NCBI RefSeq assembly: GCF_009192775.1
Contig: NZ_VTFX01000006.1
Coordinates: forward strand, 1 to 64,000
DNA: 64,000 bases
Source: Arthrobacter yangruifuii
GTDB lineage: Bacteria > Actinomycetota > Actinomycetes > Actinomycetales > Micrococcaceae
Direction of reading: 5' to 3'
Part shown: in pieces, positions 22,951 to 46,533 of the stretch
Layout: each line of letters starts with the position of its first letter
Position numbering within the stretch: position 1 is the first letter of the stretch
Position numbers and translations under genes: made by a program
The notes under the pieces: generated by a model
Told to the model about the DNA's origin: nothing
Databases searched by the model: none
What the model saw: only the letters and a program-made list of their open reading frames with translations

Positions 22951-22998
22951 GACATGCCGCACAACTTGCTATATCAACTGCTTGAACTTGTGGGGAGT

Positions 22999-23024: not shown

Positions 23025-23054
23025 TAGGAATATTGTCATGGTCGAGGGGTACCG

Positions 23055-23879: not shown

Positions 23880-23881
23880 AT

Positions 23882-24724: not shown

Positions 24725-24751
24725 CCATCGCACCAAGCAAAGGAACGCACC

Positions 24752-25879: not shown

Positions 25880-25893
25880 GACCAGGAGCAAAA

Positions 25894-29984: not shown

Positions 29985-32963
29985 TCACATGGACCTGCCG
30001 ATCGGGTCATTAATTTTCGGGCGTGCATCCGGCTTAAGGGCGTCTGCGATCACCTGGACCAGATGCCGCGCGTCGAGCCCGGCGAGATCAGCTACCTGGG
30101 TGCGGCAGCTGAAACCATCGGCCAAAATGGTGCGGTCCGGGGCCAAGGCGGCTTTACGAAGAATGCCTTCCTGCGCAATTTTGGCCGAAATCTCGTAGTG
30201 TCCCTGCTCCATGCCGAAATTCCCGGCGAGGCCGCAGCAGCCGCTGGAAACCTCGACGTCGCAGCCCATGTCTGAGAGCAGAGCCAGATCTTCCTGATAA
30301 CCCATGACTGAGTGGTGGTGGCAGTGCGGCTGAACCAACAGTCTTTCCGATGTGGGTGGCGGGGTCCAATCAATGGAACGGAGGAACTCGGCCACGGTTT
30401 TTGTCGCTTGGGACACCTCGGCTGATCGTGGGTCGTCGGGCAGCAGCTCCACTAAGTCTGACCGCAAAACGGCAGTGCACGAGGGTTCCAGTCCTACGAC
30501 GGTCCTGCCCGCCGCGACATGCGGGTACAGGATGTCCATGGTCTTAGTCAGCTTGACCTTGGCCGCGGTTAGTTGGCCCGTGGTGATTAGCGTCAGTCCG
30601 CAACAAGCTCCCGGGCTGGCAAGTTGTACATCGCAGCCGGCCGCACGGAGCACCTCCAATGCCGCAAATGCGACATTGGGGCTCATAGCGTCGGAAAACG
30701 AATCCACCCACAGCAAGACAGGATGGCCCCCCACGAGTCCCATCGCAGGCCCTTGAGGAATATTCTGTACACGCCTCTCCACCGCTATCCGCGGTTTTTC
30801 GTGAGTCGACGTGGCCTGCGCCCGGAAGGGCCTGGTGGGGAACGCCGGAAGGCTGCGGCGCGGGTCCGCACCAGCGATCCGCATCATCATCCGACGCACC
30901 GCGCCGACCTTGGCAACCGCGTTGATCAGCGGTCCGAATGGTCCGACCAGCCGCAGCCACTGCGGCAATCTTCCAAAGGTGTAATGCGTCAGAGGCCGGA
31001 GCTTGCCCTTATAGGTTTGGTGCAACGCCTCAGACTTGAACATTGCCATATCGATGCCGGTGGGGCAGTCGTTCGCGCACGCTTTACAGCTCAGGCACAG
31101 GTCCAAGGCATCGTGGACCTCGGGGGAGGACCAGCCCAAGGTCACGATCCCTCCGTTGAGCATCTCCTGCAACACACGCGCCCGCCCCCGGGTGGAATGC
31201 TCCTCGTCTCGAGTCGCTTGGAAGGATGGGCACATAAAGCCACCCTGCTCGCTTAGGTCCGCGCGGCACTTACCAACGCCGACACAGCGGTGTAACGAGT
31301 CGGTGACATTGCCGGCATCGTGGGTGAACGCGAATCCATCGCTCGCGTGCAGTTCCACCGCGTGTGGCCGGCGCAAAGAGGCGTCCATTGGTTCCGCGTC
31401 CACCACCACGCCCGGGTTAAGCACATTGTGCGGATCGAACAGCGCCTTGAAACCGGAGAACGCTGCGATAGCTTGGGACGAATACATGGTGGGCAACAGC
31501 TCGCTGCGGGCTCGCCCGTCTCCGTGTTCGCCTGACAGCGAGCCGCCATAACGGGCCACGAGATCCGCTGCTGCTTCAAGGAAGGAACGCATGGCTGCGC
31601 CGTCTTGGCCCAGCGGAAAATCGATTCGCAGGTGTACGCAGCCGTCACCGAAGTGTCCGTAGGCCAAGCCTGAGAGCTGGCGTGCATCCATAAGCGCCGT
31701 GAGGTCACGTAAGTAATTGCCAAGATGCTCGGGCGGGACGGCGGAGTCCTCCCAACCAGGCCAAGCCTGAGCGCCGGTGGCGGTGCGGCCGGCCAACCCA
31801 GCGCCGTCGGCGCGAATTTGCCACAGCCTGGTGGCCTCGCGACCAGAAGGCAGCACGACAGCTTCCAAGGCGCCCGCGTCCACTACCATCGCTTGTGCCG
31901 CAGCGAGGGCCTCTGCGTCCGTGGCCCCGCCTACCTCCACCATCAACCATCCTCCCCCCGCGGGCAAGGCCGGCATGGACTCGCCGCTCGACGAACGACG
32001 CACGACTTCTACGAGTGCCGCGTCCAGACCTTCAAGGGCGAGCGGCCGGTGCCTCAGCAGAGCTGGGACGGCGTCGGCCGCGCTGGCCATGTCCGGGTAT
32101 CCAAGTACCGCTAAGGCCGGGGCGGCGGAACGCGGGACTAGGTCCAGCTCCGCCTCCAGTATGATCCCGCAGGTACCCTCGGTTCCGGTGAGTGCGGCGG
32201 CTAGGTTGCGGCCGTTTTCCGGCAGCAGATGCTCCAAGCTGTAACCGGAGATCTGCCGGCCGAACCGGCCGAACTCGGTGCGGATGGTCCCAAGGTTGGC
32301 GAGCATGAATTGTTCCAGTCCTGGAACAGCGTCCATAGAGTCGCGGCCGACACCGAGATCCAGGACTTCCCCGGTACCAGTCAGCCAGCGTAGCCGGCGC
32401 ACATTGTCTGCGGTCCGGCCGTAGGCAAGCCCATGAGGTCCACAGGCGTTGTTGCCGATCATCCCGCCGAGCGTGCAGCGCGTCGAGGTGGAGGGATCCG
32501 GTCCAAAGCGCAGCCCGTACACCGCTGCTGCAGCCTGCAGATCAGCGAGCACGACACCAGGTTGCACGATGGCGGTGCGCGCCTCCGGATTGATCGACAC
32601 GATCCGATTCAGATACCGGCTTACATCCAGTACCAAGCCGGGCCCGACTGCATTTCCGGCACAGGAGGTACCGCCTCCCCGGACTGTGACGGGCAGCCCA
32701 TACCGCGCAGCGATACGCACGGCGGAGACGGCATCCTGTTCCGTGCGCGGCATCGCAACCACTTGCGGGGGGACCCTGTAGTTGGAAGCGTCGCTCGTGT
32801 ATTGAGCCAGCCGTACGGGACTGGCATCAACCTCGCCCTCCAGCGCTGCGCTAAGCTCGCTGACGATGGCGTCCATGTCTGGCCGCCGAGCAGGCCACGC
32901 AGGATTGCCGCTTGCTTTCGGTCGACCGTCACCGGAGGACGTGGCTTCCCCACTGCTCGTCAC
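29985..32963 (-). CDS. FAD/Fe-S D-2-hydroxyglutarate dehydrogenase (YdiJ-like)
   Basis: A 992-residue fusion. The N-terminal VAO-type FAD domain has VTVRGGGTSCAGNAVG and the FAD loop TLGGMIGNNACGPHG. A FAD-oxidase C-terminal domain includes YGHFGDGCVHLRID and GSLSGEHGDG. The GlpC/LutA-like half has the 4Fe-4S motif CLSCKACANDCP and CCG motifs (LEPSCTAVL; SGCCGLAGNFG). E. coli YdiJ, of similar size and layout, oxidises D-2-hydroxyglutarate to 2-oxoglutarate. GTG start with AAGGAG 7 bases upstream. As the last gene of the block that also encodes HglS, it would complete lysine breakdown. D-lactate is an alternative substrate. Confidence 0.85.
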   Translation of the reverse strand: MTSSGEATSSGDGRPKASGNPAWPARRPDMDAIVSELSAALEGEVDASPVRLAQYTSDASNYRVPPQVVAMPRTEQDAVSAVRIAARYGLPVTVRGGGTSCAGNAVGPGLVLDVSRYLNRIVSINPEARTAIVQPGVVLADLQAAAAVYGLRFGPDPSTSTRCTLGGMIGNNACGPHGLAYGRTADNVRRLRWLTGTGEVLDLGVGRDSMDAVPGLEQFMLANLGTIRTEFGRFGRQISGYSLEHLLPENGRNLAAALTGTEGTCGIILEAELDLVPRSAAPALAVLGYPDMASAADAVPALLRHRPLALEGLDAALVEVVRRSSSGESMPALPAGGGWLMVEVGGATDAEALAAAQAMVVDAGALEAVVLPSGREATRLWQIRADGAGLAGRTATGAQAWPGWEDSAVPPEHLGNYLRDLTALMDARQLSGLAYGHFGDGCVHLRIDFPLGQDGAAMRSFLEAAADLVARYGGSLSGEHGDGRARSELLPTMYSSQAIAAFSGFKALFDPHNVLNPGVVVDAEPMDASLRRPHAVELHASDGFAFTHDAGNVTDSLHRCVGVGKCRADLSEQGGFMCPSFQATRDEEHSTRGRARVLQEMLNGGIVTLGWSSPEVHDALDLCLSCKACANDCPTGIDMAMFKSEALHQTYKGKLRPLTHYTFGRLPQWLRLVGPFGPLINAVAKVGAVRRMMMRIAGADPRRSLPAFPTRPFRAQATSTHEKPRIAVERRVQNIPQGPAMGLVGGHPVLLWVDSFSDAMSPNVAFAALEVLRAAGCDVQLASPGACCGLTLITTGQLTAAKVKLTKTMDILYPHVAAGRTVVGLEPSCTAVLRSDLVELLPDDPRSAEVSQATKTVAEFLRSIDWTPPPTSERLLVQPHCHHHSVMGYQEDLALLSDMGCDVEVSSGCCGLAGNFGMEQGHYEISAKIAQEGILRKAALAPDRTILADGFSCRTQVADLAGLDARHLVQVIADALKPDARPKINDPIGRSM

Positions 32964-32997
32964 TTTTTGACTCCTTCTGCCAACGTGGATGCGTGGT

Positions 32998-34143
32998 TCA
33001 AGCGTTCACTGGTAGCGGCTTGCCGCGTAGCTGCATAGCTTGCTTAACTCGTTCCTGGGCCAAAGATCGAGCGGCGTCGTGGCTGGTTCCGCCGCGACGT
33101 TGGGTCTCTTCCAACACCTGTATGGTGTTCGCCCGCAACTTCGTCGAGACTGCCTCGAAGATCTGTCCCGTTTCCGGTCGAAAAGCGGAGTGCCGGGCAT
33201 CCATGGCGAACGCGGCGGAGACAACGCCGCCGGCGTTGGCAATGAAGTCCGGGATTACGGTGACCCCTGCGGCGCGCAGCACAGCCTGGGCCTCCACAGT
33301 TGTGGGCAGGTTGGCACCCTCGACGAGCAGCCGTCCCTTTATGTTTCCGGCATTGGAGACATCGATGACGTCCTGCAAAGCAGCGGGCACCACGATATCC
33401 GCGTCGACGAACAACTCGGTTCCGGATTCGATCTTCAACTCCGGTAGCGCGCTGACGAACGCATCGCCGAGCTCCCGACGCAGCCCTAGCAGCGTAGGGA
33501 TGTCCAAGCCATTCGGGTCGTGCAACGCCCCGGCGGCGGTAGACACGGATACCACCTGATAGCCCAAGGCATGCAGCCGCTCGGCAGCTGCATGCCCAAC
33601 GGCTCCGAATCCCTGCAGGGCAACGCGACGTCCAGCCAAAGCGGTGGTCGCGACAGCCTGGTCAACGGCTTCGGCCACCCCGTACCCGGTGATCCCAAGC
33701 TGGTCGTAAGGGATCCCGCCAAGCTCATACGGCGTGCCGACGGCGGCACCGCGGGTCCCGAGCTCGTCATTGATGATGGCAGCATCGTTCTCCGTCAGAC
33801 CCATGTCGAGCCCAAAGACATACTCCTCCGGGACCTCGTTGCGTAGGCGACGGACGAAAGCTCTTAGGATCTCTTCCTTGTAGGGAGAGACAGGGTCTGC
33901 CTGGATGCCTGCCTTGGCGCCTCCGTAGAAGAGATCCACGCTGGCCCACTTCCATGTCATCACGCGGGCCAGGCGGGCTATCTCATCCACGGACACTGTG
34001 GGCTGCATCCGTGTGCCTCCCTTACCGATGCCACGGGCGGTATTGTCAATGACCAGAACACCTTTCATGCCCGTCTTCGCATCGCTCACGGCGACGATCT
34101 TTTCCGGTCCCCACTCGTCCATCAGGTCGAACACATTATTCAC
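32998..34143 (-). CDS. Glu/Leu/Phe/Val dehydrogenase family (2-aminoadipate deaminase candidate)
   Basis: A 381-residue NAD(P)-dependent amino-acid dehydrogenase. Catalytic Lys77 lies in YGGAKAGI and catalytic Asp113 in FGLDMG; the dinucleotide fold has GFGAVGHAAAE, and the C-terminal IANAGGVVSA motif is normal. The usual substrate-binding G-P-A-K-G-G-x-R is G-I-G-K-G-G-T-R here. GTG start after AAGGAG. It lies between the D-2-hydroxyglutarate dehydrogenase and the aminoadipate-semialdehyde dehydrogenase, so it is a good candidate for deaminating L-2-aminoadipate to 2-oxoadipate, a step done by an aminotransferase in Pseudomonas. Plain glutamate dehydrogenase is the alternative. Confidence 0.85.
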   Translation of the reverse strand: MNNVFDLMDEWGPEKIVAVSDAKTGMKGVLVIDNTARGIGKGGTRMQPTVSVDEIARLARVMTWKWASVDLFYGGAKAGIQADPVSPYKEEILRAFVRRLRNEVPEEYVFGLDMGLTENDAAIINDELGTRGAAVGTPYELGGIPYDQLGITGYGVAEAVDQAVATTALAGRRVALQGFGAVGHAAAERLHALGYQVVSVSTAAGALHDPNGLDIPTLLGLRRELGDAFVSALPELKIESGTELFVDADIVVPAALQDVIDVSNAGNIKGRLLVEGANLPTTVEAQAVLRAAGVTVIPDFIANAGGVVSAAFAMDARHSAFRPETGQIFEAVSTKLRANTIQVLEETQRRGGTSHDAARSLAQERVKQAMQLRGKPLPVNA

Positions 34144-34313
34144 GCTGGTTACTCCTTGATAGCACTGGCATACTCGTTGCGTTGCTCAGGTGGCCTGCAG
34201 ACCAGCGGTGGTAGAGGTAAGACGGCGCGCCAGCCAGCTTAGGGGCGCACCGTCTGCCACCTGAAGACGGAGCCTCTTGGCCTCCAGACCGTTGAGATGG
34301 CGGACCCGGATCG

Positions 34314-35843
34314 CTAGATGAACTTCACGCCTTGGGCGAGAGGCAGCTGGCCGGAGTAGTTCACGGTGTTAGTGGCCTGACGCATGTAAGCTTTCCAGGA
34401 ATCCGAGCCAGACTCGCGTCCACCGCCGGTCTCCTTCTCACCACCGAACGCACCACCAATCTCGGCGCCGGAGGTACCGATGTTGACATTGGCGATGCCG
34501 CAATCGGAGCCGGAGGCGGAGATGAATCGCTCGGCTTCGGCCTGATCCTGGGTAAAGATCGCCGAGGACAGCCCCTGCGGGACGGCGTTGTGCGTCGCGA
34601 TCGCTTCGTCAAGATCCGTGTACGTCATGACGTAGAGGATGGGAGCGAACGTCTCATTGTGGACCACGGCGCTCTGTTCCGACATCCGCACGATTGCTGG
34701 CTCGACGTAATAGGCCTCAGGGAATTCGTCCGTCAGCACACGGTTTCCGCCGGTGAGCACCGTGCCGCCCTGAGCCTGAGCGTCGGCCAGCGCCTGCTGC
34801 ATAGCCTCGTAGCTGCCCTCGTTGATCAACGGACCGACGAGATTCTCTTCCTTCAGCGGGGTACCGATGCTTAGCGTGCCGTAGGCCGTGACGAGTTTCT
34901 CGGTGAGCTGGTCGACGACGGATTCATGAACGATAAGCCGTCGCATTGAGGTGCAGCGCTGCCCTGCAGTGCCGACGGCGGCGAACACGATTCCGCGCAG
35001 TGCCAGATCCAAATCGGCGCTGGGGGTGATGACGGCGGCGTTGTTGCCGCCCAGTTCCAAGATCACGCGTCCGAAGCGTTCAGCGACCTGCGGAGCGATC
35101 TCGCGGCCCATGCGCACCGAGCCGGTGGCGGAGACAAGAGCAACGCGAGGGTCCTTGACGAGCCTTTGTCCGCCTGCGCGGTCGGTGACCACGAGCCGGT
35201 GAATGTCCTTCGGGGCACCGGATTCAGCGACCGCGCGGGCCAGCAGGGCATCCGCAGCCAGCGCGGAGAGGAACGTGATGCCAGAAGGCTTCCAGACCAC
35301 GGTGTCTCCGGCAATCAAGGCCAGCGCGGTGTTCCAGGAGTACACGGCGACCGGGAAATTGAATGCTGAGATGATGCCGACAACGCCCAGGGGGTGCCAG
35401 GTCTCCATCAAGCGATGTCCGGGGCGCTCGGAGGGCATGGTCTTGCCATACAACATGCGGGACTGTCCGACAGCGAAGTCGCAGATATCAATCATCTCCT
35501 GTACCTCGCCGAGTGCCTCGGAGGTGATTTTGCCGGCTTCGGCTTGCACGATGTTCGCTAGGTCCTGTTTGTGCTCAGTGAGTAACTCCCCCCAGCGCTT
35601 GACGACGTTGCCGCGCAACGGAGCAGGAACGTCCCGCCAGGTCTTAAACGCCTCAGCGGCTGCGGCGATTGCCGCATCCACATCCTCATTCGTGGCAGTA
35701 CGCAGTCCGGCGAGGCGTTCGCCGGTGAGCGGGGAAAAAGCGTCGTGGTCGGTCCCGTAGGCGGACTCCGTGACACCACAGGCGGTGAGGGAGGCGCGGA
35801 CGCTGGAGGCGAGTTCCGTGATTTCGGTCTGGGTCAACGGCAT
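34314..35843 (-). CDS. amaB: L-aminoadipate-semialdehyde dehydrogenase (AmaB/ALDH7-type)
   Basis: A 509-residue aldehyde dehydrogenase of the ALDH7 (antiquitin) group. It has FNFPVAVYSWNTALALIAGD, catalytic Glu in VILELGGNNA, nucleophile Cys297 in GTAGQRCTSMRR, and the diagnostic tail NVNIGTSGAEIGGAFGGEKE followed by SWKAYMRQATNTVNYS. ALDH7 enzymes oxidise alpha-aminoadipate semialdehyde (the open form of piperideine-6-carboxylate) to 2-aminoadipate. ATG after AAGGAG. The pathway neighbours (HglS, pipecolate-oxidase-like enzyme) support the lysine role. Confidence 0.92.
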   Translation of the reverse strand: MPLTQTEITELASSVRASLTACGVTESAYGTDHDAFSPLTGERLAGLRTATNEDVDAAIAAAAEAFKTWRDVPAPLRGNVVKRWGELLTEHKQDLANIVQAEAGKITSEALGEVQEMIDICDFAVGQSRMLYGKTMPSERPGHRLMETWHPLGVVGIISAFNFPVAVYSWNTALALIAGDTVVWKPSGITFLSALAADALLARAVAESGAPKDIHRLVVTDRAGGQRLVKDPRVALVSATGSVRMGREIAPQVAERFGRVILELGGNNAAVITPSADLDLALRGIVFAAVGTAGQRCTSMRRLIVHESVVDQLTEKLVTAYGTLSIGTPLKEENLVGPLINEGSYEAMQQALADAQAQGGTVLTGGNRVLTDEFPEAYYVEPAIVRMSEQSAVVHNETFAPILYVMTYTDLDEAIATHNAVPQGLSSAIFTQDQAEAERFISASGSDCGIANVNIGTSGAEIGGAFGGEKETGGGRESGSDSWKAYMRQATNTVNYSGQLPLAQGVKFI

Positions 35844-35898
35844 TTGGTGCTCCTTGTTTCGAATACGGTTAGTCGGAGGTTCGTCCGGTCGATTCGGA

Positions 35899-37317
35899 CT
35901 AGTGGGAGGAGATCGCTGCCGAGGCAGGGGAAATCTCGACGCCGAGGTCCTTGGCGAGTTCTGTCACGGAGACGTCCTGCTGGGCCTGATAGAGGTTATT
36001 GGGGTCTAGTACTTCACGGCCGATGATGCGGCTCATCCGATCAATGTCATACGCGGTGGCTTGTTCGGCGTCGTTCTTCGTTCCCCCGTCGGTGAGGTTG
36101 GACTGGAAGATTCCAGCCGCAGAGCGCGGCAGAAAGTCCTCGTAAACGATCGGTTCGGGGACAGCGGCTCCGGAGACGATCAGTTCCGTTAGGGTGATGG
36201 GTCCGGCCGGGCGCCCGGCAATGACCTCGGGATGTGGTTTGAAGGTGAAGTAGGCCAAACCCTGGGCGGCGAGTTCCGCTTCGGTGTTCGGAAGATTCTC
36301 CTCCCACACAGTTCGGGCAACATCTTGCCGTACCACGTCCGCGTCGGCGGCAAGTCGGGCGTCAACTTCGGCGACCATGCGATCGTACACATCCCGGCCT
36401 GCCGGGGTGAGTGCGATGCCGCGCGCTTCGACCTCACCGAAACGTACCCGCAGCTCTCCAGGCCTCACGGAGCCGTCAGAATGGCGAAACATCCGTTTTT
36501 CTCCGAGAGCCTTGAAAGAGGTCTGGCGGAGCAACACGTCGGGTCCGTCCCAACGCGGCGGGCCCTGAATCTCGTCGATCATAGTGATGCCCAGGGCCTC
36601 CATGCCGGCGTACAGCGCATCGATGTCCAATACTCGGGGGGTGAGGTGGTTGATGTGGGTAGTTGTGACGCCGCCGATGTCCGAGGCCACCGCGGAGATC
36701 GCCTCGAGCCGGCGGTACCAGTCGTAGTCCACCGGTTCGGCGGACAGCTCGAACGCTCTCGTGGCGAGCTCCAGGAGTCGCTTCGCTTCCGCGTCCGGGA
36801 GCCCCCCCGCGGCGGCCGCGCGATCGGCGAGTTCCAGAAGCTCGGGGCCAAAGAGCTCTCGGCGGTTGAAGAAGTCATCGAGTTCCCGCTGCAGCTGCGC
36901 GTCGAAGAATCGCGGGTCTTCTACGGCGAGCATCGAGGTGAAAACCCGAAACGGATTTTTGGCTAGCTCGTCGGCGTCGATGGGGCGGAAGGCTGTGGAT
37001 ACGACCGGCACGGCGGAGGACGCCGCGTCTCGCAGGTCGTAAAAGCCCACCGGGTGCATGCCGAAGGCCGCAAAGACTCGAGCCACTTGGGACAGTTCCC
37101 GCTCGGAGCCCACGCGGATAGCACCGTGCCGCTCAGCGGTGACGCGGCTGATGCTGCCCAACCGCTCAGCGTCCGCGCCGTGCTGGCGCAGGTGCTCCTG
37201 GTTCACCTTTGTAGAAACCTCTACCAAGGTGTTGTAGGCCGGTACCTCAGTGCCGTACATGGTTGAGAGGCTTCGGGCGAACGCGGCCCGCAATTCCCAC
37301 AGGCTCTGGAAACTCAT
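35899..37317 (-). CDS. hglS: 2-oxoadipate dioxygenase/decarboxylase HglS (DUF1338)
   Basis: A 472-residue DUF1338 protein. In Pseudomonas putida the family member HglS is a non-haem Fe(II) enzyme that converts 2-oxoadipate to D-2-hydroxyglutarate. Candidate metal and substrate residues by motif are His64 and Arg68 in RHGAIRVG, His221/His224 in TTTHINHLTPRVLD and Glu295 in VRFGEVEARGIAL, at spacings close to those described for HglS. The C-terminal IVYEDFLPRSAAGIFQSNL and RMSIIGREVLDPNNLY-like blocks are family-typical. ATG is preceded by AAAGGA. It sits between amaB and the pipecolate-oxidase-like gene. Confidence 0.92.
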   Translation of the reverse strand: MSFQSLWELRAAFARSLSTMYGTEVPAYNTLVEVSTKVNQEHLRQHGADAERLGSISRVTAERHGAIRVGSERELSQVARVFAAFGMHPVGFYDLRDAASSAVPVVSTAFRPIDADELAKNPFRVFTSMLAVEDPRFFDAQLQRELDDFFNRRELFGPELLELADRAAAAGGLPDAEAKRLLELATRAFELSAEPVDYDWYRRLEAISAVASDIGGVTTTHINHLTPRVLDIDALYAGMEALGITMIDEIQGPPRWDGPDVLLRQTSFKALGEKRMFRHSDGSVRPGELRVRFGEVEARGIALTPAGRDVYDRMVAEVDARLAADADVVRQDVARTVWEENLPNTEAELAAQGLAYFTFKPHPEVIAGRPAGPITLTELIVSGAAVPEPIVYEDFLPRSAAGIFQSNLTDGGTKNDAEQATAYDIDRMSRIIGREVLDPNNLYQAQQDVSVTELAKDLGVEISPASAAISSH

Positions 37318-37356
37318 GGATTAGTCCTTTCAGGGGGCGTGTGACTTTGGCGGTGT

Positions 37357-38547
37357 TCAGATGATGTGGACTTCGCGGACCAGCGCCGCGTCATTGTTGA
37401 AACGCTCGGCGGAGAACGTGGAAAGGTCGATGAACCCATCCCGGCCCAGATATAGATCGCGAACCAGTTCCCCGACGGCGGGCCCCTGGAGGAAACCGTG
37501 GCCGGAAAACCCCGTGGCGTAGAAGAACCCGGAGACTTCCTCGGACGCACCGATGAGTGCGTTGTGGTCCGGCGTGTTCTCATACAGCCCCGCCCAGCCG
37601 AACTCGAGGTCCGGTTCAGCGAGGGACGGGGCGCAGATCCGGGCGGCTGCGGAGAACTCAGCGACCCATCCGTAGGTGAAGTCCCGCTCGAAACCGGGGG
37701 ATTGCTGGTTGGAGACACCTAGGAGCATGCCATTGCGGTAGTTGTGGAAGTACATGGTGGTCGAGAGATCCAAGGTGAACGGGACGTCCGGGTACGGCAT
37801 GGGCTGCTGCCGCGTCATACCGATCTGGCGGCGCACTGGGGTGACGGGCAGTTCGACGCCGACCATCTGGCCCACGTGCCGTGACCATGCGCCGGCTGCG
37901 CAGACCACCGCATCGGTATGGATGGTGCCACGGTTGGTGGTCACGGACTGGATGGCTCCGGCGGCGGTCTCCACCGAGAGCACCTCGGTGTAGGTCAGGA
38001 ACACGACCCCCGCTGCCTTTGCAGCATGTGCGTAGGCCTCTACGGCCTTGGCTGGCTCAGCGAAGCCGTCATCCGGTGAGTACGAGGCCGCCTGCAGTAC
38101 GGCGGGGTTCAGGAACGGATTGATAGCTGCTGCCTCAGCGGGGGAGATCATCCGACTGTTGCTGCCGAAGTGGTTCTGAACGATCACGCTGGCTTCGCAG
38201 TCAGCAACCTCAGCAACGCTGCGGCAGAGAAAAAGATAACCGACCCGTCGCAGTCCGATGTCCACGCCGAAGCGTTGGCCGAAGCGGCCGTAGGCGTCCA
38301 GACTGCGTTTGCCCAGCGCAACGTTCGCGGGGTCCGAAAAAGTGGCACGGACACCGCCCAGCGGTTTAGCGGAAGAACCAGTGCCGAGGCCGGAACGCTC
38401 GATCACCACGATGTTGCGCACACCGGCCTCAGCCAGGTGAAAGGCGGCGCTGACACCCATGATGCCACCACCGACGATGACGACATCGGCGTCTTTCGGC
38501 TGGGCAGTGCCGTCGGGAAGGGCGAGGGAAACCACCTGGTTCGCCAA
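37357..38547 (-). CDS. FAD-dependent amine oxidase, L-pipecolate oxidase candidate
   Basis: A 396-residue DAO/sarcosine-oxidase-like flavoenzyme with dinucleotide motif VVIVGGGIMGVSAAFHLAEAG, GLGTGSSAKPLGGVRATFSD and C-terminal FAD contact YATGFSGHGFLQGPAVGE. I chose TTG at 38547 because AGGAGG lies 6 bases upstream; the upstream ATG at 38574 has no ribosome binding site of its own. As first gene of the block encoding AmaB and HglS it probably oxidises L-pipecolate to piperideine-6-carboxylate, as AmaA does in Pseudomonas. Sarcosine or another secondary amine remains possible. Confidence 0.8.
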   Translation of the reverse strand: MANQVVSLALPDGTAQPKDADVVIVGGGIMGVSAAFHLAEAGVRNIVVIERSGLGTGSSAKPLGGVRATFSDPANVALGKRSLDAYGRFGQRFGVDIGLRRVGYLFLCRSVAEVADCEASVIVQNHFGSNSRMISPAEAAAINPFLNPAVLQAASYSPDDGFAEPAKAVEAYAHAAKAAGVVFLTYTEVLSVETAAGAIQSVTTNRGTIHTDAVVCAAGAWSRHVGQMVGVELPVTPVRRQIGMTRQQPMPYPDVPFTLDLSTTMYFHNYRNGMLLGVSNQQSPGFERDFTYGWVAEFSAAARICAPSLAEPDLEFGWAGLYENTPDHNALIGASEEVSGFFYATGFSGHGFLQGPAVGELVRDLYLGRDGFIDLSTFSAERFNNDAALVREVHII

Positions 38548-38598
38548 GGCGGACCTCCTATGTGATGACAACATGCGTGAATGATCATCGGTAATGGG

Positions 38599-38608
38599 TT
38601 ATATACAA
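38599..38608. promoter_or_regulatory. GntR/FCD-type operator candidate
   Basis: TTATATACAA on the plus strand (TTGTATATAA on the other) is one base from the TTGTATACAA palindrome bound by several FCD-type GntR regulators. It lies about 50 bases upstream of the first gene of the minus-strand catabolic block, where an operator or -10 box is expected. Confidence 0.4.
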
Positions 38609-39281
38609 GCAGCCTAAGCGCAATGTGATCTAGGTCAAGTTAAATTTCATGAGCAAAAGCTCTAAGCACTCCTAAATGGACGGTCATGCCGGGGATTTCA
38701 CCTCCGCAAACACTGTCTGAGGGGCAGGAGCAGGCAGAAAAGTTAGGCGGCACCGCGGGCCATGGGATGAAATTCGCATGCCGACCACCCAGCAGATGGG
38801 AGGCCACGCGAGGCAGGGCATCGGTTATTCGTCAGGAGCGGGTCGCTGGACCCATAGGGCATCAAGTTGTCATACCCCTGAGTGACGGGCGCGGCGTCGA
38901 GTCTGTCTCTCTGCTGAGTGCGGTGCCGCATTTGGTGGACGGTAGACCTGTGGCAAGTGATGCGCCGGCCTCGGGTCGCTGCGTCGTGGTTCCAGGCAGC
39001 GGTGTGACACTGCGCTTCGTGGTCATTGGCGGCGCAGATTGGCTCTTCCCGCATGGTCGGCCGGGGCTGGGTGCGGCAGCGAGTATGGGGCTTGCGACGA
39101 ACTCTTTAGAAGTGGAGTACGGCACCGGTCCCGCGTTAGCCATCGAATCGGCATGGGTTGGCTTCGGCTTGAGAGATGCTGCAGGTGGGGCCTTCCTCCC
39201 TACGCGCCGGACCCATTCCGCCGTCACCCGGCGGTCGGCAGCGTGGGGTGGTTTCGGCACTGAGGTGCACCGAGAGCGAGG
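38609..39281. other. Spacer between catabolic block and regulator; unrecognised frame
   Basis: A plus-strand frame at 38686-39297 (203 residues, ATG) stays open across the spacer, but it has no recognised family, no clear ribosome binding site at its first ATG and overlaps the regulator 3' end. Minus-strand frames overlap it. It may be a decayed gene or chance in GC-rich DNA. The left end must contain the promoter for the minus-strand block. Confidence 0.3.
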
Positions 39282-39950
39282 CTACGGCCTGGCATAATCC
39301 AGATGCTGGACCATCAGGGCGTGGAGGTGCTCGGTGTCACCGGCCACGAGCGCCTCCACGATCGGCAGGTGTTCTTCGGCGCTCTGCCGCAGAACTCCAC
39401 GTTCTGCCAGACGGTAGGAGCCACGAACCCGGCTCTTATCTCGGAGGTTTTCGACGATGTCATTGAGCCGGCGATTGCGGAGGAGCCCAACTATTCCCAT
39501 ATGGAATGCCTGATCAGCATCGAGGTATTCCGGCAGGCGGTCAGGCTGGGCAGCTTCGACTGTCGCCTGGGCTAGATGCCGGACAGTTTCCTGCTGCTCG
39601 TGCGTCAGCCCCTTGCCCGCAACCTTCATGACGGCGGGGACTTCGATCATCATGCGCAGATCGTAGACCTCCTGCCGGTCCGCGTCGCTCATCTCCACCA
39701 CCCGGAAACCGCGATTTCTTACCACTTCCAGGAGACCCTTCACCGCGAGTTCCATCATCGCCTCGCGTACCGGGCTATTCGAGACGCCGAGTTGAGTGGC
39801 GAGGGAGTTGGCCGAATAGATTTGCCCGGGCTTCATTTCCCCCGACAACAGGGCAGAGCGCACGACGCCGAGTGCCTCATCCTTTAGCGTCCCCCTCCGG
39901 AGCCGCAAGGCGTGGACGCCGACTATTTCCCTCACATTGCTCTCCTGCAT
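39282..39950 (-). CDS. GntR-family regulator, FCD (FadR/VanR) subfamily
   Basis: A 222-residue regulator. The N-terminal winged helix has YSANSLATQLGVSNSPVREA and LLEVVRNRGFRV. The C-terminal FCD domain has the Asp/His ligand pattern (DLRMMIEVPAV; DADQAFHMGI; SAEEHLPIVEAL) that binds a metal and an organic-acid effector. ATG at 39950 is preferred because AAGGAG is 7 bases upstream; the ATG at 39956 is too close. It lies between the two halves of the lysine/pipecolate cluster and is the obvious candidate regulator for both. Confidence 0.9.
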   Translation of the reverse strand: MQESNVREIVGVHALRLRRGTLKDEALGVVRSALLSGEMKPGQIYSANSLATQLGVSNSPVREAMMELAVKGLLEVVRNRGFRVVEMSDADRQEVYDLRMMIEVPAVMKVAGKGLTHEQQETVRHLAQATVEAAQPDRLPEYLDADQAFHMGIVGLLRNRRLNDIVENLRDKSRVRGSYRLAERGVLRQSAEEHLPIVEALVAGDTEHLHALMVQHLDYARP

Positions 39951-40143
39951 GGGCATGCTCCTTCTCAGCGAGATTACATTTCACAATAGGCCAGCGTTCA
40001 GAGCCATTGCATGATCGTCCGTGTTCCGCTCCTGCCCCGTGTGCCCGGATGATGTCCGCGGGAACGCTACATGACCTGTCAACAACTACTTTTGAATCGC
40101 CTCAAGGAACCATGGGTGCCCTTGACAGAATCCCATCGACTCT

Positions 40144-40171
40144 TGACAGGAACCGATTCCACCCTAAGAGT
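40144..40171 (+). promoter_or_regulatory. Promoter candidate for the importer operon
   Basis: TTGACA at 40144-40149 and TAAGAG at 40166-40171 are spaced by 16 bases, 58 bases before the first gene. A second TTGACA lies 21 bases upstream (40123-40128) in a partial direct repeat with the context CTTGACAGRA. Confidence 0.45.
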
Positions 40172-40228
40172 AATCGACAACCGGTTACAGATCACTTGCT
40201 CCCCCGAGTTCCTACCGAAGGATGATCC

Positions 40229-41077
40229 ATGACATACCGTTCAGTTCTCGCTATAGGTGCTTCCGCTACTTTCGCCGCTCTGGCGTTGAGTTCGTGCAGC
40301 GGACAGACGAACGCCACCTCCGTGGCCGATGACTGTGTCCCGCAGAGTGAGGTCAAGACTCTTCAGGAAGGCGTCCTAACCGTAGCTGCCCCCGAGTTTC
40401 CTCCGTTCTCGTCGATATCCGATGGGGAGGCGACTGGAGCGGACGCCGACATTATCAAGCAGTTCGCGGAAGACAACTGTCTTGAGATCCGGATGGAACC
40501 TACGTCCTATGCAGGCACCATCCCCGCCGTACAGAGCAAACGCGCAGACGTCGCCATCGGCTGTTACTACCGCACTGCGCAGCGTGCGGAGATTGTGGAC
40601 CTTTCCGCTCCCGTCTACACGGATGACATGGGTGTGGTCTCCACCGACGGCGTCACCTCGATCCGCGCCATGGAGCAGCTTAAAGTCGGCACTGTGGATG
40701 GGTACCTATGGGTGGCCGATATGAAGGCGGTCCTCGGCGATAAGCTGACCGTTTATCCGAGCGCCGTGGAAATGCAGGCGGACCTCAAGGCAGGTCGCAT
40801 CCAGGTCGGTCTCGACGGGTTCGGCTCTGCAGCCCAAATGTATAAGGACAGCCCCGACTACAAGGTCCTTGTGGTGGAGCCTGACGAACGGGTGGTTGCC
40901 TCCACTGAGCCGGCGCAGATCGGCTTCCCGCATACCAAGGGCAACACCAGCCTGACCCAGGCTCTGGACGCCAGTATCGAGTCCATGAAAGCCGATGACA
41001 AGATCGTTGAGATCCTCACTGCCAACGGCCTGCCGGAGACAGCCGCGGAGACCGGCGAGCCCCGGCTCATCAAGTAA
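40229..41077 (+). CDS. Amino-acid ABC transporter substrate-binding lipoprotein
   Basis: A 282-residue SBP_bac_3-type lipoprotein with lipobox ALSSC and the fold signature GVLTVAAPEFPPFSSI and RADVAIGCYYRTAQRAEIVD. ATG follows GAAGGATGATCC. The cluster encodes enzymes for D-lysine/pipecolate breakdown, so the ligand is probably D-lysine, pipecolate or a related cationic or cyclic amino acid. This is inference from context. Confidence 0.88.
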   Translation: MTYRSVLAIGASATFAALALSSCSGQTNATSVADDCVPQSEVKTLQEGVLTVAAPEFPPFSSISDGEATGADADIIKQFAEDNCLEIRMEPTSYAGTIPAVQSKRADVAIGCYYRTAQRAEIVDLSAPVYTDDMGVVSTDGVTSIRAMEQLKVGTVDGYLWVADMKAVLGDKLTVYPSAVEMQADLKAGRIQVGLDGFGSAAQMYKDSPDYKVLVVEPDERVVASTEPAQIGFPHTKGNTSLTQALDASIESMKADDKIVEILTANGLPETAAETGEPRLIK

Positions 41078-41100
41078 TGCCGGGCGGAAGGGATACCGCT

Positions 41101-42126
41101 ATGAATGAGGTGGACGCCAAGGGGGAGCGTACCCGAACTGTGTTCATTGACGGCGAGGAAATCCGCGCAGTCCTGTCTCCCGCCGGCGCGCTCGAGGCGC
41201 TCGAAGAGACCCTGCGAGCCGGATTCGATCCCGAGCAGGATGCTCCCCGTACTCGGGTAGATACAACAACCGGGCAATTTTTGCAGATGCCTTCGGCTTG
41301 GAACGGCGCGGTCGGCACGAAGCTGTTGACGATCACCCCGGGCAACGCCAATCTCGGCGCACCGGTCATCCAGGGCCTGTACGCCCTCTTTGGCGGACCG
41401 GTCAAGGCGCCGCTAGCGGTGCTCGACGGGATCGAATTGACTAATCTGCGGACATCCGCGGTGTCAGCGCTCGGCGCCCGTCTGTTGTTGGGTGCTCGGG
41501 GCCAGGACCATGCAGACGCCCCGGCAGCGGATGGTGGTCTGCACTTGGTGCTGTTCGGCACCGGCGTCCAGGCGTGGCAGCACATCCTGACGTTCCACAA
41601 CGTTTTCACCCTCGGCAGGGTAACGGTGGTGGGGCGCAATCCCACCGCCGCGGCCAGACTGGCGGCACAGGCCCGTAGCAAGCTGGGTTTGCCGACTTCC
41701 GTGGGGGACGCTTCTGCCGTGGTAGGTGCGGATCTTGTGGTGTGTTGCACAGCTGCCCGGCAGCCACTTTTCGACGGGGCGCTGGTGCCGGACTCTGGGG
41801 TCGTCATTGCCATCGGATCTCACTCCCAAACGAGCCGCGAACTGGACGACACACTGATGGCGCGCGCGGCAGTAATCGTTGAATCTCGAGACTCGGCTTT
41901 GCGAGAGGCCGGCGAGGTGGTGCAGGCCCTGAAATCCGGCGCCATCTCCGGCCCGGAGGAGCTCCACACGCTGGCAGAAGTCGTGTCGGGCGGATGGGGG
42001 CGCCAGACCGGACGTCCAGCAGTTTTCAAGACCACGGGGATGCCGTGGGAGGATCTGGCCGTCGCCCGAGCCGTTGTCGCCGCCCGCCTATCCATTCCCG
42101 CGAACGGCCTGAATCCCGGCTGCTGA
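41101..42126 (+). CDS. Ornithine cyclodeaminase/mu-crystallin family; ketimine reductase candidate
   Basis: A 341-residue NAD(P)-binding protein with [29 protein letters not shown], Rossmann motif [10 protein letters not shown] and [15 protein letters not shown], the OCD/mu-crystallin layout. ATG at 41101 follows GGAAGGG at 7-8 bases; an ATG at 41077 overlapping the previous stop has no ribosome binding site. Mammalian mu-crystallin reduces cyclic ketimines including piperideine-2-carboxylate, so this enzyme probably makes L-pipecolate from the product of the DadA-like dehydrogenase at 44234, in place of the unrelated DpkA of Pseudomonas. True ornithine cyclodeaminase is the alternative. Confidence 0.82.
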
Positions 42127-42155
42127 GGCGGCCCGCTCCCGAAGGATTGCACACC

Positions 42156-42929
42156 ATGGTACAACCAGCATCCACCACTACCGAGAATGTCATCCAGGTG
42201 CGTCACTTGGCTAAGTCCTACGGGGATACTGTCGTTCTCCGCGACGTATCGCTGGCGGTACCGGAAGGATCCGTCACAGCGATGATCGGCCCCAGCGGAG
42301 CCGGCAAGAGCACCGTGCTGCGCTGTATGAACCTCCTTGAGAAGCCTGACAGCGGGGAGATCGAAATCGACGGCCATGCCATCAACGCCGGGGAAAAAAT
42401 CTCGCCAAAGAACCTTGCCGCGCTGCGCCGCAGTGCCGGCATGGTGTTCCAACATTTCAATCTCTTTCCGCACATGACCGTGCTGCGCAACATCAGTCTT
42501 CCCCAGGAACGCGTGCTCGGCCGCAACAAGGACGAGGCCAACACCAAGTCCATGGAGCTGCTGACCCGCATGGGCCTGGCCGACAAGGCGGACCATTACC
42601 CGGCGCGCTGCTCGGGCGGACAGCAGCAGCGCATCGCGATCGCCCGGGCTCTAGCTCTCGGTCCGCGTGTGATGCTCTTCGACGAGCCCACGTCCGCGCT
42701 GGACCCTGAGGTCGGCGTTGAAGTTCTGGAGGTCATGAAGGAGCTTGCATCCGAGGGCATGACCATGGTGGTGGTCACACATGAGATGGGCTTCGCAGCC
42801 AACGTCTCGGATGAGCTGGTGGTTATGGCTGATGGGGGGATTATCGAATCCGGTGACCCGCACCAGATAATGAGCGATCCGCAGCATGAGCGGACCCGTC
42901 GCTTCCTGCGCGCTGTGCTGGAGCGATGA
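42156..42929 (+). CDS. Amino-acid ABC transporter ATP-binding protein (GlnQ-like)
   Basis: A 257-residue PAAT-family ATPase with Walker [26 protein letters not shown], signature CSGGQQQR (Cys in place of the usual Leu), Walker [15 protein letters not shown] and [11 protein letters not shown] at 42156 was chosen; the frame extends upstream into the previous gene but the family N-terminus begins here. Its stop overlaps the first permease start by 4 bases. Confidence 0.93.
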
Positions 42930-43573
42930 TCGGCATGCAGATGTTGCACGCCGTTGCACTGGGCCTACCGTTGACGATCCTCGTTACTGTGCTCTCTCTC
43001 GGCCTCGGCACGGTGCTCGCGCTGCCGCTGGTTGCCGGGCTGCGCAGCGGGAACCGTGCCGTCTGGCTGTTCACCCGAGGAATTGTGGATCTGCTGCGCG
43101 GTATCCCGCCCGTGGTGTGGCTGTTCATTCTCTACTACGGAGTCTCTCTGGGCGCCTTGCGGATGTCCGCGCTGCAGGCTGCCGTCATCGGGCTCGGTTT
43201 GGTGTCTGCTGCATACCTGGCGGAGATTTTTCGTGGGGCCATTGGCTCAGTGCACCAGGGTCAGTGGGAGGCGAGTTCTGCGCTCGGCTTCCGCAGGGGT
43301 GCCTTGTGGGCCCGAATTATCGGTCCCCAAGCATGGCGTACCGCCATCCCCGCGTATACAGCCTACGGAATCGGGTTGCTCAAGGACTCCTCGATCGCCT
43401 CCACCATTGGCGTTGCGGAGATAGTCTTCTTCTCCAACCAGTACGCACGGCAATCCGGGGAGGGAATTTTCGTCTTCTTCATCGCCGCCGGTGTCTACAT
43501 CCTCCTCAGCATGCCGCTGGGCATGCTCTCCCGGCACCTTGACACCAAACTGCGGAAGGCGGTCGCCCGATGA
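42926..43573 (+). CDS. Amino-acid ABC transporter permease 1 (HisMQ family)
   Basis: A 215-residue membrane protein with about five helices. The HisMQ motif is visible as [23 protein letters not shown] overlaps the ATPase stop; its own stop overlaps the second permease start (ATGA), so the three genes are translationally coupled. It pairs with the next gene product to form the channel. Confidence 0.92.
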
Positions 43574-44226
43574 AGGGCCTGTTCCCAGACGTCGCCTCAA
43601 TCCTGCCCACACTGTTCGGCGGTTTGCAGGTCAGTCTGACGCTCACGTTCCTCAGCCTCCTGTTCGGGCTGCCCCTCGGCCTGTTGTTCTCCTTTGGTGT
43701 CATCGCCCAGAACAGGGCCTTCCGTTATGTGTCCGTCTTCTTCGTGGAGGTGGGCCGCGGCGCCCCGGCCTTGGTCTTGCTTCAGTTGATGTACTACGGG
43801 CTGCCGAATGTTGAAATCACGCTCTCTTCACTGGCTTCTGCCTGCCTGGCACTGGTCTGGACGACGGCTGCATACACCGCTGAACTCATTCGCGGTGGCA
43901 TTCAAGCGGTGCCCGCTGCCGAGATTGAAGGTTCCGACGCCTTGGGTATGAGCATGCGCGACCGGCTGCGGTTCATTGAGATTCCGCAGGGGCTGCGCAT
44001 TGCCCTGCCGTCACTCATGGGCTTCGCCGTTCTGCTATTCCAGGCCACATCGCTCGCCTACACCGTGGCCGTGCCGGAGTTGATGAGCCAGGCCTATTCG
44101 ACCGGCTCCTCCACGTTTAAGTACCTCCCCGCTTTCGTCGCTGCGGGTTTGCTCTATCTGGCTATCTCCGTACCTGCCACGTGGCTTTCAGTGCTCGCTG
44201 AGAAGCGCCTCAGCCGTCATCTTTAG
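43570..44226 (+). CDS. Amino-acid ABC transporter permease 2 (HisMQ family)
   Basis: A 218-residue membrane protein with the HisMQ loop TAELIRGGIQAVPAAEIEGS and about five transmembrane helices. It forms a heterodimeric channel with permease 1. The start overlaps the previous stop by 4 bases; the DadA-like gene starts 7 bases after its stop. Confidence 0.92.
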   Translation: MKGLFPDVASILPTLFGGLQVSLTLTFLSLLFGLPLGLLFSFGVIAQNRAFRYVSVFFVEVGRGAPALVLLQLMYYGLPNVEITLSSLASACLALVWTTAAYTAELIRGGIQAVPAAEIEGSDALGMSMRDRLRFIEIPQGLRIALPSLMGFAVLLFQATSLAYTVAVPELMSQAYSTGSSTFKYLPAFVAAGLLYLAISVPATWLSVLAEKRLSRHL

Positions 44227-44233
44227 GAGAACC

Positions 44234-45478
44234 ATGTCTGGATCAGTATCTCCCCCCAACAGCGTGATCGTGATCGGCGGAGGCATAGTCGGTCTCTCCA
44301 CGGCGTGGTACCTACAGGAACACGGAATCGAGGTCACCGTCGTAGACCGCGGGCCTGTAGGAGGCGGAGCCAGCTGGGGTAATGCTGGCTGGGTCGTTCC
44401 CGGGCTAGTTACTCCGCTGGCCGAGCCCGGCGGCTGGAAGCACGGCGTTGAGGCCTTGTTCCGCAAGGATGCGCCGGTGTCCATTCCGCCGCGCTTCGAC
44501 CCTGCCTTGTGGCGCTTCCTCGCCAGATTCTCCCGCAATATGACGGCCGGGCGATGGCGCCGTACCGTGGAGTGTCTGCAGCCCTTGGTCGCCCGAGCCC
44601 TGGACGCGTTCGGCGAGTTGCATGCCGCAGGCGCGGCCCCAGCCGTTATCGAGGCGCCGTACTCTGTCGGTTTCCGCTCCCCGGCCGCTGCCGACCACTA
44701 CCGGAACCATCTGGAGGAACTCCGCGGCATGGGGCAACCTGTGGAGTACGTTAACGGCTTCTCCATACCTCAGTTCTCAGCGGAAGTCACGGACTCCTTA
44801 CGGGTGATGGGGCAGGGTTTCATTGATCCAGGGGCATATGTAGTCAACCTGGCTGCTTCGGTCAAGCAGCGTGGCGGTAGGATCCTGGAGAATTGGCCGA
44901 TTCACGGTGTCGCAGACACGGGCAGCGGCCTTGGGGTGAGTGTCGTCTCCGCCGACGGAGGCACTGAAGTGGCGGACGCTGTAGTGCTCGCCACGGGTGC
45001 CTCCATACCGAGGCTTGGCCGGGCGTGGGGTCTACGGACGCCGCTGCAGCCGGGGCGCGGTTACTCGTTCACCGTGGACTGCGAGCTACCGCTGGATGGA
45101 CCGCTCTACCTGCCGGCTGAGCGGGTTGTCTTGACGCCCTATGCCGGGGCCGTTCGGGTCGCTGGGACCATGGAGTTTGCGGGATTCGACGACCCGCTGA
45201 ACACTGCCCGATTGGACTCTGTGGCCGCCGCGGCCAAGCCGATGGTGCGTGGCATCGACTGGTCTACATGGCGCGATTTCTGGGTCGGCCCACGGCCCGT
45301 GACCGCCGACGGATTGCCAGTGCTGGGTGCACTCCGTTCTCCTCGGATCTTTGCTAACGGCGGCCACGGTATGTGGGGGATCGTACTGGGACCAGTGAGC
45401 GGTCGCCTGCTCGCCGGACTCATAGCCGAGGGCTGCACTCCGATCGATCTGGCCCCCTTCAACCCGCTGCGGCGATAG
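44234..45478 (+). CDS. dadA: D-amino-acid dehydrogenase (DadA-like); D-lysine candidate
   Basis: A 414-residue FAD enzyme of the DadA group: VIVIGGGIVGLSTAWYLQEH, GGGASWGNAGWVVPGLVTPL, and the C-terminal block GPRPVTADGLPVLG and ANGGHGMWGIVLGPVSGRL. It oxidatively deaminates D-amino acids, passing electrons to the respiratory chain. It is the last gene of the importer operon and follows the permease by 7 bases with AGGAG upstream, so it is expected to act on the imported compound. D-lysine would give a keto acid that cyclises to piperideine-2-carboxylate. Confidence 0.88.
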   Translation: MSGSVSPPNSVIVIGGGIVGLSTAWYLQEHGIEVTVVDRGPVGGGASWGNAGWVVPGLVTPLAEPGGWKHGVEALFRKDAPVSIPPRFDPALWRFLARFSRNMTAGRWRRTVECLQPLVARALDAFGELHAAGAAPAVIEAPYSVGFRSPAAADHYRNHLEELRGMGQPVEYVNGFSIPQFSAEVTDSLRVMGQGFIDPGAYVVNLAASVKQRGGRILENWPIHGVADTGSGLGVSVVSADGGTEVADAVVLATGASIPRLGRAWGLRTPLQPGRGYSFTVDCELPLDGPLYLPAERVVLTPYAGAVRVAGTMEFAGFDDPLNTARLDSVAAAAKPMVRGIDWSTWRDFWVGPRPVTADGLPVLGALRSPRIFANGGHGMWGIVLGPVSGRLLAGLIAEGCTPIDLAPFNPLRR

Positions 45479-46336: not shown

Positions 46337-46533
46337 CAGGCCTCGGGGAAGGTGCAGGTGTGCCCGTCGGGGTCGATCGGCTGACCGCAGATCACGCAGA
46401 TCGGACGCCCGGTGCCCACTACTTCGCGGGTGCGCTTGGCGAAGGCCCGGGCGGTGCCCACGGGCATGCTGACCCGTAGCACCTCGGCGGGGTGGGCGTC
46501 GTCGTCCTCCTCAAGGAATCCATCCACGTCCAC
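46336..46533 (-). pseudogene. DUF3090 gene fragment, C-terminal part
   Basis: Encodes roughly the last 65 residues of DUF3090, including PVGTARAFAKRTREVV and the zinc-type C-x-x-C end CVICGQPIDPDGHTC, nearly identical to the intact gene at 52508-53068. The homology stops near 46530, where unrelated sequence begins; the next part of the gene reappears at 48885-49016. Confidence 0.88.

Follow-up and report, generated by a model that had tools for sequence, protein, structure and literature searches.

Can a single actinobacterial locus encode both the uptake of a C6 cyclic or basic amino acid and its complete oxidation? This question is raised by positions 29985-45478 of the window (the whole stretch of DNA analyzed here, i.e., the first 64,000 nt of contig 6, NZ_VTFX01000006.1, of the 3.5 Mb genome of Arthrobacter yangruifuii), where two divergent operons flank a gene for a GntR-family regulator. 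Our preferred answer, to which we assign a probability of about 70%, is that the locus would form one regulon serving this purpose, with L-pipecolate as the hub of the pathway. Comparative sequence evidence gives good support to the part of the route between pipecolate and 2-oxoglutarate, and the system is probably a new actinobacterial variant of the 2-aminoadipate branch of Pseudomonas that contains one new enzyme specificity.

All 12 genes of the locus are open, at the positions and in the families that a preliminary description of this DNA had assigned to them around one GntR regulator. On the minus strand, the reading order is a DAO-family flavoenzyme (hereafter flavin oxidase), HglS, an aldehyde dehydrogenase (ALDH) of the ALDH7 type that acts on L-piperidine-6-carboxylate (P6C), a Glu/Leu/Phe/Val-type (ELFV) dehydrogenase, and a flavin adenine dinucleotide/iron-sulfur (FAD/Fe-S) dehydrogenase. 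The plus strand encodes, in order, a solute-binding protein, an OCD-family enzyme, the ATPase and two permeases of an ATP-binding cassette (ABC) importer, and a DadA-like enzyme. Spacing is operon-like on both strands: consecutive minus-strand genes are separated by 39, 55, 170, and 34 bases, and neighboring plus-strand genes overlap or lie apart by 7 and about 29 bases. From these parts we infer the substrates of the enzymes outside the HglS and P6C dehydrogenase families, the entry compound, and the direction of regulation, as follows. The importer would take up D-lysine, or D/L-pipecolate; DadA would convert the D form to piperideine-2-carboxylate (P2C), which the OCD-family enzyme would reduce to L-pipecolate. 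The flavin oxidase would then yield piperideine-6-carboxylate, and the ALDH7-type enzyme L-2-aminoadipate. In place of an aminotransferase, the ELFV dehydrogenase would use NAD(P)+ (the oxidized nicotinamide adenine dinucleotide cofactors) to form 2-oxoadipate, which HglS, with Fe2+ and O2, would convert to D-2-hydroxyglutarate, and the FAD/Fe-S dehydrogenase would complete the route to 2-oxoglutarate. The GntR protein would repress both operons through one type of operator at each promoter and be released by an intermediate.

Table 1. Features of the locus, with positions in the 64,000-nt window.
Feature	Position	Strand	Basis
FAD/Fe-S dehydrogenase, 992 aa, proposed D-2-hydroxyglutarate dehydrogenase	29985..32963	-	Pfam FAD_binding_4, FAD-oxidase_C, Fer4_8, CCG
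ELFV dehydrogenase, 381 aa, proposed L-2-aminoadipate dehydrogenase	32998..34143	-	Pfam ELFV_dehydrog, pocket residues, part swaps
P6C/aminoadipate-semialdehyde dehydrogenase (AmaB, Pcd, ALDH7 type)	34314..35843	-	NF050084
HglS, 2-oxoadipate dioxygenase/decarboxylase	35899..37317	-	NF050083, active-site residues
DAO-family flavin oxidoreductase (flavin oxidase), proposed L-pipecolate oxidase/dehydrogenase	37357..38574	-	Pfam DAO
Predicted regulator site, promoter of minus-strand operon	38587..38600	+	exact match to ATCGRYAAYSGRTT
GntR/FCD-family regulator	39282..39956	-	Pfam GntR + FCD
Predicted regulator site, divergent GntR/importer promoter	40173..40186	+	exact match to ATCGRYAAYSGRTT
Family-3 solute-binding lipoprotein of amino-acid importer	40229..41077	+	Pfam SBP_bac_3
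OCD/mu-crystallin-family enzyme, proposed P2C reductase	41077..42126	+	Pfam OCD_Mu_crystall
Polar amino-acid ABC ATPase	42156..42929	+	Pfam ABC_tran
ABC permease 1	42926..43573	+	Pfam BPD_transp_1
ABC permease 2	43570..44226	+	Pfam BPD_transp_1
DadA-like flavin D-amino-acid dehydrogenase, proposed D-lysine or D-pipecolate dehydrogenase	44234..45478	+	Pfam DAO

HglS and the P6C dehydrogenase belong to families already named in NCBIfam. HglS passes the equivalog model NF050083 (724.8 bits, cut-off 600) and stays below a second model, NF049974 (392.3 bits, cut-off 550). Its His64, His224, Glu295, and Arg68 align with His70, His226, Glu294, and Arg74 of P. putida HglS, so that the His-His-Glu metal triad and the substrate Arg are kept; passages of PMC7286885 describe the triad and an Arg that recognizes the distal carboxylate group of 2-oxoadipate. 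The ALDH passes the equivalog model for L-piperidine-6-carboxylate dehydrogenase (NF050084, 813.1 bits, cut-off 730), and its best solved relative is 6rtr, semialdehyde dehydrogenase Pcd (E = 1e-217). The preliminary description had compared the locus with the AmaB, HglS, and YdiJ enzymes of Pseudomonas and had proposed to place each enzyme against its characterized counterparts. While AmaB-type P6C dehydrogenase and HglS lie inside their family cut-offs, the flavin oxidase reaches 70.5 bits against the AmaA model NF050086 (cut-off 600) and the FAD/Fe-S enzyme 427.7 bits against the YdiJ model NF049975 (cut-off 1350), which rules out membership in either family. "YdiJ-like" is therefore apt only for the domain make-up of the FAD/Fe-S enzyme, and for most steps of the pathway the likeness to the Pseudomonas enzymes is one of role and not of family.

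The same families are found together in other genomes. Searching a single genome of each species with HglS yielded 176 relatives; the best 80 loci were kept, a set biased to close relatives. Neighbors had to align as a single piece covering >35% of the query, with identity thresholds of 30% (GntR), 40% (FAD/Fe-S enzyme, flavin oxidase, binding protein, OCD-family enzyme, and DadA), 45% (permeases), 50% (ELFV enzyme), 55% (P6C dehydrogenase), and 60% (ATPase); OCD matches in L050 (30%), L084 (30%), and G094 (27%) and a DadA match in L050 (29%) fell under these thresholds and were therefore left uncounted. Near HglS, the P6C dehydrogenase was present in 64 of the 80 loci, the flavin oxidase in 59, the FAD/Fe-S enzyme in 25, the ELFV enzyme in 24, GntR in 14, the OCD-family enzyme in 8, each importer gene in 5, and DadA in 2. 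Among the 59 loci flanked on each side by 9 kb or more, the corresponding counts were 52, 47, 18, 18, 14, 8, 5, and 2, and three of these loci lacked all four partners. HglS is accompanied by both the flavin oxidase and the P6C dehydrogenase gene in 55 of the 80 loci, and the full set of five catabolic genes fits into about 10 kb in 15, distributed over Arthrobacter, Paeniglutamicibacter, Zafaria, Streptomyces, Nocardiopsis, Kytococcus, and Saccharopolyspora; in Streptomyces loci, the ELFV and FAD/Fe-S genes can be as far as 8 kb from HglS. Twelve further reading frames of the window served as a control and were searched against all 80 loci (identity 40%, coverage 35%): ten had no match, and the remaining two, ABC ATPases by Pfam, matched six and two loci. 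The gene arrangement is not due to chance. The complete twelve-gene locus also occurs in Arthrobacter sp. Edens01 and A. wenxiniae, and the loci of Paeniglutamicibacter and Zafaria have everything except DadA. A self-contained actinobacterial cluster, as had been proposed together with a search for co-occurrence in other actinobacteria, is thus found well beyond one genome.

Evidence for joint control comes from the promoters. Alignment of those of five loci revealed one site common to both operons, and ATCGRYAAYSGRTT occurs exactly before the flavin oxidase gene and between the genes for GntR and the binding protein (Table 1), so that the same conserved site is present at both operon promoters. 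Allowing at most one mismatch, the window has three matches (0.29 expected; 0 of 100 shuffles reach three), a count that is not independent because the pattern was derived from these sites, and the third match is the overlapping opposite strand of the site in the divergent promoter. Throughout the genome there are three exact copies, two of which are at the two operon promoters, and none of the reversed pattern; the third copy, between short-spaced reading frames, is taken as chance. In relatives, L035 and L040 have an exact site at both promoters, L034 has an exact site at the importer promoter and a one-mismatch site at the other, and L032 has an exact site at the importer promoter and no match with up to one mismatch at the other. 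The Kocuria loci L037-L039 contain one-mismatch sites at about the expected start of the flavin oxidase gene, and no site was found in 7 of the 17 loci scanned in this comparison. The GntR protein is the presumed ligand of this predicted site, and the single regulator proposed for the locus in the preliminary description gains support from it. In L032 (7679-8554) and L034 (7678-8622), a LysR gene lies between the GntR and flavin oxidase genes, and relatives of it are similarly placed in many Streptomyces loci; tblastn detected no LysR remnant between the two genes in the window.

A sample of 198 genomes from the same order was also examined, with E-value limits of 1e-3 for HglS, 1e-25 for the OCD-family enzyme, and 1e-60 for the ELFV enzyme, flavin oxidase, and FAD/Fe-S enzyme. 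Matches were present in 29 genomes for HglS, 4 for the ELFV enzyme, 37 for the flavin oxidase, 125 for the FAD/Fe-S enzyme, and 34 for the OCD-family enzyme. Besides the window's own genome, the ELFV enzyme was found in G078, G094, and G101; in each of these four genomes its gene shares a locus with those for the flavin oxidase and the P6C dehydrogenase, and in three of them with HglS. An OCD-type gene (27% identity in G094, 43% in G101) and importer genes also adjoin the core, and in the 19 kb examined of G078 neither an OCD-type gene nor importer genes were found beside it.

Several observations weigh against a single dedicated route and regulon. The family models for OCD, DadA, YdiJ, and AmaA enzymes all score under cut-off, and only L032 and L040 have a counted DadA at the locus, L050 offering no more than the 29% match. 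In the order sample, only 3 of the 29 HglS genomes have the ELFV enzyme, so other enzymes must perform that step elsewhere. Moreover, the flavin oxidase occurs without HglS in 18 of its 37 genomes, and the FAD/Fe-S family is found in many more genomes than HglS (125 versus 29 of 198) and is therefore not specific to the route. In the Corynebacterium locus L048, HglS adjoins the ELFV gene, and neither the flavin oxidase nor the P6C dehydrogenase was counted there. Finally, of 168 loci scanned for the promoter site, six have exact copies, two of the six being the window itself, which leaves just four others.

Scores against the models for pyrroline/piperideine-2-carboxylate reductases are 163.4 bits (NF004793, cut-off 322) and 104.8 bits (NF045512, cut-off 400) for the OCD-family enzyme, and the DadA-like enzyme reaches 189.9 bits against its subfamily model NF001933 (cut-off 383). 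The preliminary description had the route begin with D-lysine. Its portion from pipecolate and P6C onward, with one gene per step, stands, whereas entry of D-lysine is not secured because DadA is rare at the locus and D- and L-pipecolate fit the same genes. An account in which the substrate is D- and L-pipecolate of plant or peptide origin, with DadA and the OCD-family enzyme inverting D-pipecolate to L-pipecolate, is a serious possibility that we place somewhat short of even odds. It agrees with loci L034 and L035, where the importer and OCD-family enzyme are kept with no DadA at the locus, and with the counts near the core (8 of 80 loci for the OCD-family enzyme versus 2 of 80 for DadA). The DadA matches of the Paeniglutamicibacter and Zafaria genomes fall outside the locus, where the importer and OCD-family reductase are retained. 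The best solved relative of the flavin oxidase, 1y56_B (E = 5.3e-62), has the record title sarcosine oxidase; we take it to be an L-proline dehydrogenase subunit, i.e., an enzyme for a ring amino acid, which would also suit pipecolate. However, the DadA-like enzyme is present here and could take D-lysine just as well, and alignment of the binding protein with E. coli ArgT and HisJ gave no clear importer specificity. Entry through lysine 6-aminotransferase was considered as well and rejected, the best match in the A. yangruifuii genome having 138.9 bits (cut-off 520.8). With regard to uptake in relatives, a sodium:alanine symporter-type gene recurs in L045 (14299-15813), L038, L044, and L084, all of which are loci without the ABC importer of the window, and this suggests importer exchange; L044 also carries a binding-protein gene of its own.

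The regulon with L-pipecolate as its hub further requires an enzyme for L-2-aminoadipate, and this role, which had been proposed for the ELFV dehydrogenase, is supported by its pocket residues, genomic linkage, and part swaps in relatives. Alignment with 27 locus rows (25 from other loci, plus two in which the window gene recurs) showed that Lys41, Lys65, Lys77, and Asp113 are kept, and that a Ser at a side-chain position is replaced by Ala in the window enzyme and all 27 rows. Lys41 is presumably equivalent to Lys89 of Clostridium glutamate dehydrogenase, which would read the side-chain carboxylate of glutamate, and the Ala position presumably to Ser380, which contacts the same carboxylate. 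Retention of the Lys together with the change of Ser to Ala would suit a diacid one carbon longer than glutamate, a fit and not a proof. The enzyme is thus probably an L-2-aminoadipate dehydrogenase, an apparently undescribed specificity.

Relatives exchange parts around the same intermediates, and three natural swaps point the same way, to an ELFV enzyme that would act on 2-aminoadipate. First, in Arthrobacter sp. VKM Ac-2550 (L033, 5693-15572), a contiguous HglS-ELFV-FAD/Fe-S trio lies directly downstream of hydantoinase/oxoprolinase A and B genes; neither a flavin oxidase nor a P6C dehydrogenase gene was found in the 19.2 kb examined. Such a lactam opener could supply 2-aminoadipate from 6-oxopipecolate. 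The trio is also present in Streptomyces viridosporus (L077), at a contig edge. Second, two of the three Corynebacterium loci (L041 and L044) have a class I aminotransferase gene near the core and no ELFV gene was found in them (L041 contains 1677 unread bases), while the third, L048, has the ELFV gene and no such aminotransferase. Third, no HglS match was found in the G094 genome at an E-value limit of 1e-3, and its locus (L166, G094:C1:2780000-2799000) has a fused E1-type 2-oxoacid dehydrogenase gene between the ELFV and flavin oxidase genes and an acyl-CoA (coenzyme A) dehydrogenase gene after that for P6C dehydrogenase. These parts would route 2-oxoadipate to glutaryl-CoA; the E1-type protein is under every NCBIfam cut-off, and the acyl-CoA dehydrogenase reaches 203.9 bits against the glutaryl-CoA dehydrogenase model (cut-off 470), two other acyl-CoA models scoring higher. 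This locus also adjoins histidine ammonia-lyase and urocanase genes. In G101, a GlcD-like FAD protein occupies the expected position of the FAD/Fe-S enzyme, a copy of which is on another contig. On balance, we consider it fairly probable that the ELFV enzyme is a dedicated natural L-2-aminoadipate (homoglutamate) dehydrogenase, and that with HglS and the FAD/Fe-S enzyme it constitutes a portable module from 2-aminoadipate to 2-oxoglutarate, with variable sources (pipecolate, D-lysine, and perhaps 6-oxopipecolate opened by oxoprolinase) and two ends (D-2-hydroxyglutarate or glutaryl-CoA).

It is unlikely, by comparison, that the ELFV enzyme is an ordinary glutamate dehydrogenase which accompanies the locus by chance and replenishes 2-oxoglutarate or ammonia. 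Its best solved relatives are indeed glutamate dehydrogenases, and the Lys that we take to read the carboxylate is kept. However, the genome already has another ELFV-family gene, which is longer, of the glutamate dehydrogenase type, and retains the Ser; at an E-value limit of 1e-60, the locus enzyme was in no sampled genome without such a locus; and the trio of L033 offers it no evident use other than 2-aminoadipate. Cyclodeaminases use a catalytic Asp, and this residue was not seen in the matching stretch of the OCD-family enzyme, in an alignment that included no characterized cyclodeaminase. That this enzyme converts L-lysine directly to L-pipecolate as a lysine cyclodeaminase, with L-lysine carried by the importer and DadA a bystander, is quite improbable, since among its solved relatives ketimine reductase 4bv8 (best, 106.6 bits) and pyrroline-2-carboxylate reductase (89.7 bits) score above lysine cyclodeaminase (53.8 bits), even though lysine cyclodeaminases fall in the OCD family and are, according to PMC9854754, known from Streptomyces.

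For the last step of the route from L-pipecolate, a tree of 43 FAD/Fe-S proteins was built with FastTree, which flagged long branches. The HglS-linked rows were those with a single aligned piece of >800 residues, which included 22 of the 25 counted loci, and the unlinked rows comprised 19 of 20 stretches, the twentieth being the G094 locus (two of the unlinked genomes, G078 and G101, have HglS elsewhere). The tree excluded fragments of the window itself (L112 and L113) and the raw E. coli match L126, a protein already represented by a single YdiJ row. The 23 HglS-linked copies fall in several groups, with four label changes, at least three of which are forced by well supported branches, compared with a mean of 14.5 after shuffling. 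This is consistent with recruitment of FAD/Fe-S enzymes beside HglS more than once, and a single gain followed by losses is possible as an alternative. The tree supports a role as D-2-hydroxyglutarate dehydrogenase for the window enzyme, despite its position outside the YdiJ family.

How does the proposed pathway compare with known systems? YdiJ belongs to the Pseudomonas 2-aminoadipate branch, whose genes in P. putida are spread over several loci, with amaA, amaB, and hglS near each other. The order of intermediates is the same as in the Pseudomonas D-lysine/2-aminoadipate branch (AmaD, DpkA, AmaA, AmaB, and HglS; passages of PMC12930750 and PMC7286885), and the P6C dehydrogenase and HglS families are common to both, whereas here the oxidase, P2C reductase, and last dehydrogenase miss the Pseudomonas-type or YdiJ models and an ELFV enzyme is proposed for 2-aminoadipate. 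The actinobacterial lysine 6-aminotransferase/Pcd route to 2-aminoadipate, as outlined in sections of PMC9854754, also has a Pcd-type P6C dehydrogenase, but no lysine 6-aminotransferase exceeds the cut-off in this genome, and P6C would arise from pipecolate. YdiJ of E. coli and Pantoea has, according to extracts of PMC9504171, a FAD domain joined in one protein to an Fe-S part that resembles GlpC, as has the window enzyme, yet the two are far apart in the tree, on a long branch. Glutamate dehydrogenases share the ELFV fold family and the active-site Lys and Asp, to which we assign the usual roles; the window enzyme differs in the Ala that replaces the presumed side-chain Ser, in its shorter length, and in its confinement to such loci in the order sample.

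No such actinobacterial cluster was among the matches listed in a search of the open-access literature, a negative that is weak because it covers those listed matches; subscription papers are mostly outside its scope. The phrase "2-aminoadipate dehydrogenase" was absent from the open-access literature searched, and "aminoadipate dehydrogenase" occurs in three papers. If the reading is correct, soil actinobacteria would gain a complete, self-regulated route for pipecolate, which acts as an immune signal in plants (stated in parts of PMC7286885), and for D-lysine. The probable new amino-acid dehydrogenase specificity would be of use for making 2-aminoadipate, for which an engineered phenylalanine dehydrogenase has already been employed (passages of PMC8967036). 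In addition, the part swaps yield a direct, testable prediction for each intermediate.

The locus was likely acquired horizontally. At the limits used for the order sample, no match to HglS, the ELFV enzyme, the flavin oxidase, or the OCD-family enzyme was found in any of the 14 genomes listed that share the genus or family of A. yangruifuii, and the nearest HglS relatives among the best 80 of 176 are from Micrococcaceae. Third-position guanine-cytosine (GC) content is 0.71-0.77 in the listed locus genes versus 0.75-0.91 (11 of them >0.8) in 14 frames at 3.3-22 kb, frames that were chosen partly by third-position GC itself.

Further minor observations concern gene starts and the flanking DNA. 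The open frame of the ABC ATPase extends back to 41994, and homology to L032 and L034 begins at residue 54; its start was set at the Met adjoining the start of this homology. No RNA families were detected at 27000-47500 of the window. On the 3' side of DadA, stretches of 167, 300, and 205 bases are 90-92% identical between 45816-46513 and 51915-52685, about 6.1 kb apart, and one of them contains a shorter copy of reading frame 51741-52508; these repeats may mark a duplication or insertion edge of the acquired region. A low-GC block that adjoins the locus at 22320-26967 (third-position GC 0.63-0.65) encodes an NMT1-type ABC importer and an amidohydrolase, and resembles a second catabolic island of acquired origin.

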